A DNA stretch of 47,329 nt from Zetaproteobacteria bacterium (GTDB lineage: Bacteria > Pseudomonadota > Zetaproteobacteria > Mariprofundales > Mariprofundaceae), in the NCBI GenBank assembly GCA_002746295.2, contig NVWS02000057.1, forward strand, positions 1 through 47,329, in the 5' to 3' direction. The position numbers and the translations under genes are program-made. The notes below the pieces were generated by a model. It did no database searches, was not told where the DNA came from, and worked only from the letters and a program-made list of their open reading frames with translations. Shown here in pieces: positions 32,038 through 36,798 of this stretch. How positions within the stretch are numbered: the stretch's first letter is position 1; each line of letters opens with the position of its first letter.

Positions 32038-33638
32038 AATTATCTGGCAATATTCGACGCAACCTTCGACTTTTACGCATTGGCTACATTTTAACCTCGC
32101 ACGGCATGGCTGCCCTTGCCATGCGTATGCGTTTGCTTCGCCCTTATGCTTGGTTGATTCAGCTCTTTCGTGATGACACCCTACCGCATGATTTGGGCGG
32201 TCAAATTCGTGAAGCTCTTGAAAAACTAGGGCCAACCTTTATCAAATTTGGTCAAATGCTTTCAACACGCGTGGACTTATTACCACTCGAAGTCGCACTG
32301 GAACTGAAAAAACTGCAAGATCATGTACCTCCCGCTCCTTTTGAACACGTCCAAAGCGTCATTGAGCGCACGTTTAAAAAGCCTCTAACAGGTGAAGGTG
32401 GGCTTTATCAATCTTTTGATGAAACCCCAATTGCAGCAGCTTCGATTGCGCAAGTTCACTTTGCGATTCTGCCTGATGGGCAACAAGTCGCCGTCAAAGT
32501 TCGTCGCCCCCATATTCATAAAACGATTGAAGCGGATTTAGCCATTCTTCGCTTGCTTGCGGCGATGTTTGAACGTTATTTTCCTGAATATCAACGTCTC
32601 AAAGCCAAGTGTGTCGTTGAAGAATTTGCCACCAGTATTCGCGGGGAGTTAAACCTACGCGCTGAAGCCGCTCATGCCAGTCGTTTTGAAGAAAATTTCA
32701 AAGCCTTGGATGGTGTTCGTGTCCCCCATGTTATTTGGGATTACACCCATGTGGAAGTGCTTACCACTGAACGCATTATGGGTTTTCCTATTGATGAACG
32801 CGCCTCTATTATAGCAGCGGGTCTGGATCCCCTTAAAATCTGCGAACGTGCCACCACATTATTTTTTCACATGGTGTTTGTGGATGGTTATTTTCATGCT
32901 GACATGCACCCTGGCAATATTTTCGTCGCTCAAAATGGTGATATTGTGCTGCTTGATTTTGGCATTGTTGGTCGTTTGGATTTACGACCCCGCCGCTATC
33001 TTGCGGATATGTTGCTGGCATTTTTACGCGCGGATTACCATCAAGCTGCCATTGTTCATGTTGAAGCAGGTTATGTCCCGCGTGACACCAACATTTCTGC
33101 TTTTGAAGATGCCTTACGTGAAGTGGCCGTACCCATTTTCAATCGACCGCTGGCTGACATCTCCATTGCTGAATTGTTGCTTTGTATGTTTGCCGTCACA
33201 GAACGCTTTCAAATGGAAACCCAACCTGAACTACTCTTGTTGCAAAAAACCATGGTGGTGATTGAAGGTGTTGCCAGAGAGTTGGCCGATGATGTGAATA
33301 TTTGGGAACTCGCTAAACCCCTTGTCAGCACATGGATGATGAAACACCTCGGTCCTAAAGCCAAAATCGAACATGTCGCAGAAGATTTAAAAACACAACT
33401 GCATGATTGGATGACACTGCCCACGCGCATGGACACCATGATTGAACACGTCATACAAAGTAAGTTGATGGAACCGCCCAAGCCTTCCATTCTTCCCTTA
33501 TTGATGGGTGGACTTTTAAGTGCCGCAGGTATTGCCATGCTACTGGGGCAAACCTTACACATTCCCCATTGGCACCTTATTTTAGGTAGCAGCCTGTTAA
33601 TTTTCGGCATTATTATGATTTTTCAACGTAAATCCTAA
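32034..33638 (+). CDS. ubiB: UbiB, atypical kinase/ATPase of ubiquinone biosynthesis
   Basis: 534 residues. The protein-kinase-like fold has the KxGQ motif ([20 protein letters not shown], about 62-81), the Ala-rich nucleotide loop ([13 protein letters not shown]), invariant Lys in VAVKVRRP, catalytic [10 protein letters not shown] and metal-binding [10 protein letters not shown]. Two C-terminal membrane segments (about 490-530: [33 protein letters not shown]) anchor it. It is needed for ubiquinone production, probably for lipid precursor handling. It overlaps ubiJ (ATGA) and rnhA (TAATG). Confidence 0.95.
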
Positions 33639-34081
33639 TGGATACACCCAAGCTCATTGCTTACACCGATGGCGCATGCTCTGGAAACCCTGGTCCTGGA
33701 GGATGGGGGGTATGGTTGCGCTATGGCGAACATGAAAAAAAACTTTGTGGCGGTGAAAACCACACGACCAATCAACGCATGGAGTTACGCGCGGCCATTG
33801 AAGCACTAAAAGCACTCAAAAAACCATCACACATCACCATTTATTCAGATTCCAAATATGTGATTCAAGGCATCACCGAATGGATTTCAGGCTGGAAAAA
33901 GCGTGGCTGGAAAAATTCAGCCAAAAAGCCTGTTGTTAGCCAAGACTTATGGGAAACATTGGATGCCTTGAATCATATTCATACGGTAGATTGGCAATGG
34001 GTGAAAGGTCATGCGGGCAATGAAGGCAATGAAAAAGCGGATGAACTTGCACGCCAAGGCATTCCCAAACTTAATCCTTAA
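33638..34081 (+). CDS. rnhA: Ribonuclease HI
   Basis: Cleaves RNA in RNA-DNA hybrids. 147 residues. Metal ligands: Asp in [17 protein letters not shown], Glu in [13 protein letters not shown], Asp in [11 protein letters not shown] and Asp in [10 protein letters not shown]. The basic protrusion [12 protein letters not shown] is present, as in E. coli. The stop TAA (34079-34081) lies inside a 7-bp target duplication left by a mobile element inserted directly after it. The last gene of the ubi run, facing ntrC tail to tail. Confidence 0.95.
34075..34081 (+). repeat. Left copy of the 7-bp target site duplication (TCCTTAA)
   Basis: TCCTTAA here and again at 34332-34338 directly flank the terminal inverted repeats of the element at 34082-34331. 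The left copy contains the rnhA stop codon; the right copy encodes, on the minus strand, part of the last three ntrC codons. Confidence 0.85.
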
Positions 34082-34331
34082 CTGATGTTACGCGAAAAAA
34101 CAACCACAGAGGTACAAAAAAAAGCATTTAAAGTCGTGAGCCAATCTAGTTTTCATGCTTCTCTGTGGGAACAGTTTTTAGGTATACATTCCCACTGAGG
34201 ACGCTGGGAATGAGAAGAAACTTAACCTCCTCTGTGGTGAAAAAAGAAGTCAACGCTAGTTCCCATGCTCCTGTGAGGGGATTCATACCTTTGAAAATAA
34301 CCCCTATTCTTCATTAAGTGCGTAACATCAG
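34082..34331. mobile_element. 250-bp MITE-like element with perfect 12-bp terminal inverted repeats
   Basis: CTGATGTTACGC (34082-34093) and GCGTAACATCAG (34320-34331) are perfect reverse complements and are flanked by a TCCTTAA duplication. Inside are further inverted repeats: ACCACAGAGG (34103-34112) against CCTCTGTGGT (34229-34238), and GTGGGAA (34165-34171) against TTCCCAC (34189-34195). There is no ORF of note, so it must be moved by a transposase supplied elsewhere. It sits exactly between two convergent genes, and its right end provides the ntrC stop codon. The repeats could also fold in RNA and separate the two transcripts. The parent IS family is not recognised. Confidence 0.85.
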
Positions 34332-35758
34332 TCCTTAAATTCAGTCGGGTCAATCTCATATTGACGAATCAATTTACGTACAGTATTGCGATTCAAACCC
34401 AACATATTTGCAGCCTTAAGTTGATTACCCCGACATTTATCCAGCACCAAATTTAACAAGGCAGGCTCCACCATCGACAAAAGGTGGTGGTGTAAACCTG
34501 TTGCCTCTGCATAGCCCAATTTATCCATGTAGGCGCGTAAACAGCGGGTCACGGCCTCATCCAAAGATTCCAAGCCACCCAAAGATTGTTGCCCACCATC
34601 ATGCCCCAAGGCCAGTGCCACATCCGATACCGTAATACTCGCACCAGGGGTTAACACTGCCAAACGCCGCATGACATTTTTTAATTCACGGACATTGCCA
34701 TACCAATCATGGCGTTTGAGTAAATCAACCGAGTGATCCAATAAAATCGGTGCTGTCATGGATAATTCATCCGAGGCTTGTTGCAATAGGGTTGCTGCCA
34801 ATTCGGGAATATCATCCCGCCGCTCACGCAAGGGTGGAATATGCACGGGAATCACATTCAGACGGTAATATAAATCTTCACGAAATTGTCCATCACGAAT
34901 TTTTTGCTGTAAATTTTGATGCGTGGCTGCCAACAAACGCACATTGACCTTTTTTTCTTCATTGCCACCAATACGTTGCACCATGCCCATTTCTAAAACA
35001 CGCAACATTTTCGATTGCAATACCATGGGCATGTCACCAATTTCATCCAAAAAAAGCGTGCCGCCATCCGCATCTTCAAAGCGTCCTGCACGATGTTTAT
35101 CCGCGCCTGTAAACGCTCCTTTTTCATGTCCAAACAGTTCCGATTCCAATAATTCGGCTGGAATCGCAGCTGTATTAATGGCGATAAACGACTTGTCCTT
35201 ACGATGACTCAAACGATGCAATTCATGCGCGACCAGTTCTTTTCCTGTTCCCGATTCACCAGTAATCAAAACCGTTAAGTCTGACGGTGCAACCCGTCCC
35301 AACGTCCGAAACAACACTTGCATGGCAGGGCTTCGCCCAATAATCATGCTCTTTTTTTCTTTTTCAGCAGCTTGTTGTTTTTTTGAAATTTTCGCTTGTT
35401 TTTTAGGTTTTTTAACACTGCCCAACACACGTTGCGCCAAACGCCGCACTTCATCCAAATCAAAAGGTTTCGGGAGATATTCCATCGCCCCTTCTCGGTA
35501 TGCCTCCGCCGCATGTCCAAAGGTTGTTTCCGCTGTCAACATAATCACTGGCGCTGAAAAAACGCCCGAAGATAAGGCTTGCATACCATTGCCATCAGGC
35601 AAAAACACATCCAAAAAGACCAAGTCTATGGTTTGAGATTGCAAGGCTTTCGCATCGGCTAAATTTTCCGCTTCAAGCACATCAAAACCTTCTTCTTTCA
35701 ATACACGCGTCAAAATCCAGCGAATACCAGCATCATCATCGACAATCAATGCGCGCAT
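34328..35758 (-). CDS. ntrC: Nitrogen regulation response regulator NtrC
   Basis: Sigma-54 activator, 476 residues from the ATG at 35758, chosen because CAGGAG lies just upstream; a longer frame from 35806 overlaps ntrB further. Receiver domain with Asp50 (LVFLDVFLPDGNG), a Lys-rich linker (116-136), AAA+ domain with Walker A GESGTGKE (167-174), an intact GAFTGA (214-219) and GGTLFLDEIGD, then a C-terminal Fis-type helix-turn-helix (NQLKAANMLGLNRNTVRKLI). It overlaps ntrB by 13 bases. The stop TGA (34330-34328) is supplied by the terminal repeat of the adjacent MITE; the empty site would have ended Asp-TAA at the same residue. Its position after dusB and ntrB supports NtrC over other NtrC-family regulators. 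Confidence 0.9.
   Translation of the reverse strand: MRALIVDDDAGIRWILTRVLKEEGFDVLEAENLADAKALQSQTIDLVFLDVFLPDGNGMQALSSGVFSAPVIMLTAETTFGHAAEAYREGAMEYLPKPFDLDEVRRLAQRVLGSVKKPKKQAKISKKQQAAEKEKKSMIIGRSPAMQVLFRTLGRVAPSDLTVLITGESGTGKELVAHELHRLSHRKDKSFIAINTAAIPAELLESELFGHEKGAFTGADKHRAGRFEDADGGTLFLDEIGDMPMVLQSKMLRVLEMGMVQRIGGNEEKKVNVRLLAATHQNLQQKIRDGQFREDLYYRLNVIPVHIPPLRERRDDIPELAATLLQQASDELSMTAPILLDHSVDLLKRHDWYGNVRELKNVMRRLAVLTPGASITVSDVALALGHDGGQQSLGGLESLDEAVTRCLRAYMDKLGYAEATGLHHHLLSMVEPALLNLVLDKCRGNQLKAANMLGLNRNTVRKLIRQYEIDPTEFKD
34332..34338 (+). repeat. Right copy of the 7-bp target site duplication (TCCTTAA)
   Basis: Matches 34075-34081 exactly. On the minus strand it reads TTAAGGA and lies in the codons for Phe-Lys-Asp at the end of ntrC. 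Confidence 0.85.
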
Positions 35759-36798
35759 ACATGCTCCTGATTGCCTATACATACGGGCAAGTGCATGATG
35801 AAACATGTTTCACCACGACGTGATTTTACACTCACTCGGCCACCATGTTCTTGCATCACACGCTGAACAATCGCCAAGCCCAAACCACTGCCACGTGCTT
35901 TACCTGACACATAAGGTTCAAATAAACGATGTTTTAAATGTTCTGGAACTGCTTTGCCATTACTACGGATGCACAGCTCCAACACCATGCCTTGATGCCC
36001 TCTCAATGCCACCATCGGCGCGACACGCGTTTCCCAAACAATCCGATTTGCACCTGCTTCCAATGCATTTTGCCATAAATTTTCAATGGCTTGGCGGAAA
36101 CGTTCTTCATGCAATAAAATATCAGGTAAACTGGGGTCAAAGACACGTTGTACACGCACCCCTTCCACATTCATACATACTTCATCAATCAGCGCATGAA
36201 TATTGACCGCTGATTTAGCAATATTGGCATGCGGACCCACTTGTAAAAAAAGATCAATACGCTGACGAATACGATCCACTTCATCCATAATATGCTGACT
36301 AATTTCCTTGGCATCCCCTTCACTTTGTTCATGCAATAACTGGGCTGCACCGCGCAAGGATGCCAGTGGATTCTTCACTTCATGCGCCATTTCTAAGGCA
36401 ATGCGCGCCACGGCTTCTGCCATTTCATGGCGGTGGGCATGTTCTTCCACTTCCGAACGGTTGGCTTCAGGAAGCAATGCAATGACCACACCCTCTTCAT
36501 CTTGCCGACACGAAAAGTGTAAGGAATACGGCATATGGTTATCACGCCCACAAAACCCATCATCCGCCACCGTTTCACCCAATAATGCGCGTGATAACAT
36601 CGCTTCCACTTCCGAAGAAGGCTGCATAAAGCGTGATAAATGAACGCCTGATAAACGTCGCAAGGATGTGCCCAAATAACTTTGCGCCAACTCATTCGCA
36701 TGCGTAATATGCCCAACTTTATCCAATAAAACAACGGCAACAGGCATCATGCCCAACAATGGAAACGTCACATCTTGTTGTCTTTCGTCAAATTTCAT
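35746..36798 (-). CDS. ntrB: Nitrogen regulation sensor histidine kinase NtrB
   Basis: 350 residues from the ATG at 36798, which overlaps the dusB stop (TGATG); a longer frame from 36870 lies within dusB. No membrane segment, as expected for cytoplasmic NtrB. PAS-like domain (about 10-100: GMMPVAVVLLDKVGHITHANELAQSYLG), phospho-acceptor His in LEMAHEVKNPLASLRGAAQLL, N-box AIENLWQNALEAGAN and G-box ARGSGLGLAIVQRVMQEHGG. It should respond to PII protein and phosphorylate NtrC. Overlaps ntrC. Confidence 0.9.
   Translation of the reverse strand: MKFDERQQDVTFPLLGMMPVAVVLLDKVGHITHANELAQSYLGTSLRRLSGVHLSRFMQPSSEVEAMLSRALLGETVADDGFCGRDNHMPYSLHFSCRQDEEGVVIALLPEANRSEVEEHAHRHEMAEAVARIALEMAHEVKNPLASLRGAAQLLHEQSEGDAKEISQHIMDEVDRIRQRIDLFLQVGPHANIAKSAVNIHALIDEVCMNVEGVRVQRVFDPSLPDILLHEERFRQAIENLWQNALEAGANRIVWETRVAPMVALRGHQGMVLELCIRSNGKAVPEHLKHRLFEPYVSGKARGSGLGLAIVQRVMQEHGGRVSVKSRRGETCFIMHLPVCIGNQEHVCAH

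Follow-up and report, generated by a model that had tools for sequence, protein, structure and literature searches.

The window, a 47,329-nt stretch of DNA from a Zetaproteobacteria genome, contains a non-autonomous transposon (MITE) at positions 34082–34331, between the convergent ORFs of rnhA and ntrC. As judged from sequence comparison, the 250-bp element has the ends of a subgroup of ISAba11-family insertion sequences (IS), was probably moved in trans by their transposase, and survived where genes were spared (probability about 0.88). Here, C-numbers are contigs of the named genome (own genome), and positions such as 34082 are window positions.

The element is bounded by a left terminal inverted repeat (TIR), CTGATGTTACGC (34082–34093, plus strand; supported by genome-wide TIR counts), and a right TIR, GCGTAACATCAG (34320–34331), which reads CTGATGTTACGC on the minus strand. 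Both TIRs are identical over 12/12 bp. Perfect copies of a 7-bp target-site duplication (TSD), TCCTTAA, abut the element on each side, the left at 34075–34081 (read from the sequence and from the empty site of a relative) and the right at 34332–34338 (read directly), and every coordinate that the earlier note gave for ends and duplications was confirmed in the sequence. Within the window, CTGATGTTACGC is matched solely by these two TIRs, with up to 2 mismatches allowed, and the chance of a 12-bp perfect inverted repeat with an abutting 7-bp direct repeat is estimated at about 5e-5 per window. The element has no transposase gene, since no ORF of at least 100 aa is listed inside the 250 bp. It forms a long imperfect hairpin and folds more strongly than shuffled sequences (z-score of −5.28 as DNA and −4.2 as RNA). 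Together with the dispersed copies and the empty site described below, the TIRs, the 7–8-bp TSDs, and the small size without transposase identify it as a MITE.

To the left of the element lies rnhA (33638–34081, plus strand), which encodes a 147-aa ribonuclease HI (Pfam/NCBIfam; NF001236, 223 bits). On the other side lies a gene for a 492-aa ntrC-like sigma-54 response regulator (34328–35806, minus strand; Pfam/NCBIfam), whose score against TIGR01818 (ntrC), 536, is slightly below the cut-off of 559. With the flanks joined, the sequence reads ...CCC AAA CTT AAT CCT TAA ATTC, and the ntrC strand reads GAA TTT AAG GAT TAA. The reconstructed pre-insertion ORFs overlap by 11 bp, while they are now 246 bp apart. 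Thus, the proposal that removal of the element restores overlapping gene ends is borne out, and the separation that the earlier note proposed for two overlapping transcripts holds at the level of ORFs only.

The two genes tolerated the insertion in different ways. The C-terminus and stop codon of rnhA are unaltered, because the TAA (34079–34081) sits within the duplication, where it closes the left TSD. The ntrC ORF is read from the right TSD into the element and ends GAC-TGA. Specifically, its TGA is the complement of 34328–34330, and the element contributes this stop as well as the third base (C) of GAC, so that GA/T TAA became GA/C TGA and the stop changed from TAA to TGA. In the genetic code, NNT and NNC invariably specify the same amino acid; for this reason the last residue of ntrC remains Asp, and wherever the last codon of a gene ends in T, a CTGA-starting end inserted at this phase does no harm. 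The junction TAA/CTGA carries stops in two of the three frames. The earlier note had described this exchange, with rnhA keeping its stop, ntrC taking its TGA from the element, and both proteins keeping their last residues, and the same exchange recurs at a second locus on C92.

The closest relative, the Mariprofundaceae MAG AMOR20_M1292 (GenBank JAUZQO01; G005), has an RNase HI with 97% identity. In G005, rnhA and ntrC meet directly without the element (...CCCAAAGTCACTCCTTAAAGACGCTTGGATCAAT...), with ORFs overlapping by 11 bp, and the site is empty at the exact point of insertion. The window minus the element and one TSD (...CCCAAACTTAATCCTTAAATTCAGTCGGGTCAAT...) shows no length difference from G005, with the same gene spacing. 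In G005, ntrC ends Lys-Glu-TGA, and the putative ancestral end GAT-TAA of the window lineage is taken from the element's own flanks and not from G005. In two more distant congeners, rnhA and ntrC are separated by a gap of 44–48 bp, and therefore the overlap itself is probably a derived state of the window lineage. The 250-bp element is absent from the 30 relatives searched, the sole match being a 26-bp end stretch in G005. The second event in the same genome is at C92:33327–33607, where a gene with the element ends CAC TTA TGT GA/C TGA. The corresponding empty site in G005 reads CAC TTA TGT GAT TAA, and both versions encode ...HLCD followed by a stop.

The window element matches 11 further places in its own genome as full or partial copies. 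Two of these are full-length at 88% identity and have their own TSDs, C133:24919–25185 (TAAGTAA) and C95:310–542 (ATAGGTAA). Thus, both the further copies and the empty site by which the earlier note proposed to judge the element exist, and the 250 bases were not found with different ends, which would have pointed to ordinary intergenic DNA. The 12-bp end has 101 matches in the own genome with at most 1 mismatch, versus 3 for the reversed control, and in the fetched stretches of this genome 16 pairs of TIRs are flanked by TSDs of 7 or 8 bp (at most 1 mismatch).

The same 12-bp end, with TSDs of 7–8 bp, is found around several interiors that are unrelated to each other (about 150, 172, 240–250, and 280 bp). 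Subfamilies with 150-, 172-, and 240-bp interiors (for example, C49:32596–32835 and C6:15515–15686) contain palindromic repeats of type CGTCATCCCCGAAATCTTTTATCGGGGATCTA. Because such repeats occur in several subfamilies, it seems that identical ends have captured different interiors. A second short repeat, with ends near CTATAGTGATTCAAGTAT, is nested in several MITE copies (C2, C24, C66, C78, C95, and C137; example loci L045:1–130 and L044 near 5940), which suggests a younger second MITE family of the own genome.

The search for the parent IS led to the cyanobacterial MAG MH1_Bin12, where an element of 611 bp (L221:1198–1808) has identical 12-bp TIRs and a 7-bp TSD, TGATTAA. It encodes N- and C-terminal transposase fragments that match NCBIfam transpos_IS701_2, indicating an internally deleted IS. 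Using this element as the query against plasmids, we found complete IS of about 1.1 kb on plasmids of Cyanobacterium, Stanieria, Polaromonas, Thiothrix, and Acinetobacter (CP024913.1, AP017376.1, NC_008757.1, NZ_CP072795.1, and NZ_CP044464.1), each bounded by CTGATGTTACGC on either side and containing a single transposase ORF. Full-length IS with the ends of the window element, which the earlier note had considered, are thus found on plasmids, and the own genome has relics only, none of them intact. Two of the plasmid IS have 7-bp TSDs, TATTTAA (NC_008757.1) and TTATTTA (NZ_CP044464.1); the other three are without a clear TSD. Each of the five is a match to NF049921 (best E 4e-109), and CTGATGTTACGC-ended IS score above the cut-off of this model, as does the ISAba11 transposase of A. 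baumannii (examples with 344 and 394 bits). In most IS of the subgroup (L226–L229 and L221), the TAA stop of the transposase lies inside the right TIR, GCG-TAA-CATCAG. Therefore, this end can be read as a stop inward and outward, and the TIR is also constrained as coding sequence. Relatives in Piscirickettsia, Moraxella, and Chloroflexi have TIR variants such as CTCACCTTACGC and CTGAAGTTACGC.

In the own genome, C-terminal relics of the transposase adjoin a TIR at C44 and C75, and a further genome, G010, has several broken transposase copies. An intact transposase of the ISAba11/IS701_2 family was not found in the own assembly, a draft that is 95% complete. Because no intact parent IS was seen in this assembly, trans-mobilisation by the IS701_2 family is our working explanation, with the mobilising enzyme presumed. 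The ends of the MITE and of the relic IS have just the 12-bp TIR in common, and the MITE is therefore not a simple internal deletion of the relic IS.

Several other candidates for the parent were rejected. ISAba11 proper has TIR TAGGACTTACGCA and a 5-bp repeat, CATAT (copy L263), versus CTGATGTTACGC and 7–8 bp here. A PF01609 transposase search of the own genome returned one ISAs1-like IS on C93, whose TIR AGGGCAATCGCATTAAAA is unrelated to the MITE. A 2.5-kb TIR-to-TIR stretch in G010 (C7) contains ordinary genes, and TIR pairs of 1.2–1.4 kb in Marithrix and in the Thiotrichales genome BB2 are without transposase. The AGGGCAATCGCATTAAAA-type IS, with an 18-bp TIR and a DDE transposase (L151; C93:1594–2846), interrupts an ORF. 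A decayed copy with in-frame stops is present in G005 (L152, C22), and a AGGGCAATCGCATTAAAA end also adjoins one MITE end at C15:2585.

The 12-bp end has a patchy distribution. Among 399 sampled genomes of the phylum, its counts are raised in G005 (34), G007 (27), G010 (121, exact), G011 (13), and G169 (105), and the remaining genomes have 0–4 copies, about the control level. When GTDB contigs were scanned, this end turned up, paired and with T/A-rich 7–8-bp duplications, in Thiotrichales BB2, a cyanobacterial MAG, Chloroflexi, and Anaerolineales. Its copies number 22 in the cyanobacterial MAG, 11, 23, and 7 in Chloroflexi, and 6 in Anaerolineales (control 2), and Marithrix has 20 exact ones. 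The largest load of the repeat seen here is that of BB2 (G043, L206–L220), with 347 exact ends per about 4.2 Mb (control 0). The BB2 copies are mostly 60–225-bp MITEs, with ends that start CTGATGTTACGCAAAGGC and CTGATGTTACGCACTAAG. One of them, L218:4515–4645 (G043 C4), lies between convergent ORFs, where the TIR gives TGA on both sides; the reconstructed ORFs were shortened by 6 and 5 residues. No IMG/VR match to the extended TIR pattern has a paired element. The identical end across phyla points to a broad-host-range subgroup of the ISAba11 family.

These observations can be assembled into a probable course of events. The 12-bp ends would belong to a subgroup of the IS in the ISAba11 family (NCBIfam transpos_IS701_2), and a DDE transposase of this family, acting in trans, would have excised the element from another site. 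Insertion would have proceeded by a 7-bp staggered cut at TCCTTAA, within the 11-bp tail-to-tail overlap of rnhA and ntrC. Each TSD copy would then have preserved what its gene needed: the left copy kept the TAA of rnhA, and on the ntrC strand, where the break would have cut off the third base of the last codon, the C-TGA of the element would have replaced T-TAA. Copies landing where genes were spared presumably persisted, on a timescale and with a neutrality that we assume.

The positions of the copies relative to genes bear on this last step. In a convenience sample of fetched loci from several genomes, with approximate gene calls and hence a provisional effect size, 3 of 49 elements damage an ORF, versus about 64% of random sites drawn from the same flanks and matched for the last three target bases (p about 1e-17). 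Of the 46 tolerated copies in this sample, 10 are located at a stop codon, versus 6.6% expected (p 7e-4). A target preference of the element itself would offer another explanation: if the element actively preferred targets resembling stop codons (TTA..TAA), a trait favoured in evolution for sparing genes, it would seek out gene ends. Consistent with this, TSDs end in TAA on the left in 26/49 cases and read TAA on the right strand in 26/49, and gene ends remain about 3x over-represented when tolerated sites are matched on their last three bases. When ancestral ORF ends were reconstructed by joining the flanks of 56 TSD-flanked elements from all sampled genomes, on 9 sides the TSD closed with the TAA of the gene itself, and on 7 sides the TIR supplied a TGA at +4, all 7 within 7 residues of the ancestral end. 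However, AT-rich intergenic sequence is also rich in TAA targets, and the same pattern could be obtained from selection on survivors alone; active seeking is judged unlikely. We infer that selection against gene damage, and not active stop-codon seeking, accounts for the positions. It is a tentative idea, somewhat doubtful at present, that TTA..TAA targets and CTGA-starting ends jointly spare gene 3' ends, by placing an in-frame stop in two frames out of three and by changing NNT silently to NNC at the C-TGA phase. If true, a gene-sparing end and target would make it cheap for one 12-bp end to multiply into the hundreds in compact genomes from several phyla.

Two further readings concern the element at the rnhA/ntrC join. 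Two convergent genes that overlapped by 11 bp and are now 246 bp apart, with an element of strong hairpin potential in between, might suggest retention for a function such as that of an insulator or a bidirectional terminator. However, terminator, promoter, and Rfam scans at the element region gave nothing above threshold, with 0 intrinsic-terminator-like sites of the kind that a bidirectional terminator would need, a stem-loop followed by a U-run. In addition, many copies lie between tandem genes, and hairpins are expected in any MITE. Since the scans returned neither a terminator-like site nor an Rfam family, nothing at present supports a regulatory role of the insertion, and retention for function is improbable. 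That the segment is ordinary intergenic DNA, whose inverted and short direct repeats arose by chance, is refuted by the dispersed copies, the TSDs, and the two empty sites, and its probability is negligible. The reading as a MITE mobilised in trans and retained where genes were spared is therefore preferred.

The class of MITEs is well known. In open papers, the exact TIR gave nothing relevant, and searches for MITEs of IS701/ISAba11 and of Zetaproteobacteria gave nothing matching, with subscription journals mostly outside the search. The family, its link to the ISAba11 subgroup, the ends in common across phyla, and the repeated silent take-over of the stop codon appear to be undescribed in the open papers searched, a statement that does not establish priority. 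Together, the occupied and the empty site, a second independent event in which the codon changed in the same way, more copies, and a full-length IS that explains the ends make a near-complete natural case. It shows a mobile element entering a fully coding, overlapping junction with the length and last residue of both proteins unaltered.

Four known systems can be compared with the window element. In marine Beggiatoaceae, TAACTGA occurs as direct repeats in tandem heptamers (PMC4679880). The target/TIR junction here also reads TAACTGA, and BB2, with its 347 exact TIRs, belongs to the Thiotrichales; tandem TAACTGA was found in none of the loaded stretches, and the resemblance is probably a coincidence. 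The 611-bp MH1_Bin12 remnant has the same 12-bp TIRs and a 7-bp TSD, but it retains transposase fragments, whereas nothing derived from a transposase could be recognised in the window MITE. Similar to ISAba11 (IS701 family, NF049921), the plasmid IS are about 1.1 kb long, with one DDE transposase and the TIR core TTACGCA. However, the transposase of the NZ_CP044464.1 IS is about 25% identical to the reference, the TIR of ISAba11 and the 5-bp repeat of its examined copy differ as given above, and the window element is without transposase. The ISAba11 family paper is reportedly that of Rieck et al. 2012. The fourth system is MITEAba12 of Acinetobacter, a non-autonomous, 113-bp element with 16-bp imperfect TIRs and a 9-bp TSD, mobilised by its co-resident parent, ISAba12, via common TIRs (PMC6382973). 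MITEAba12 carries stops in all frames, has become fused to a gene end, and truncated its host gene by 398 aa (PMC6382973). Thus, the host protein is truncated there, whereas both proteins flanking the window element keep their length.
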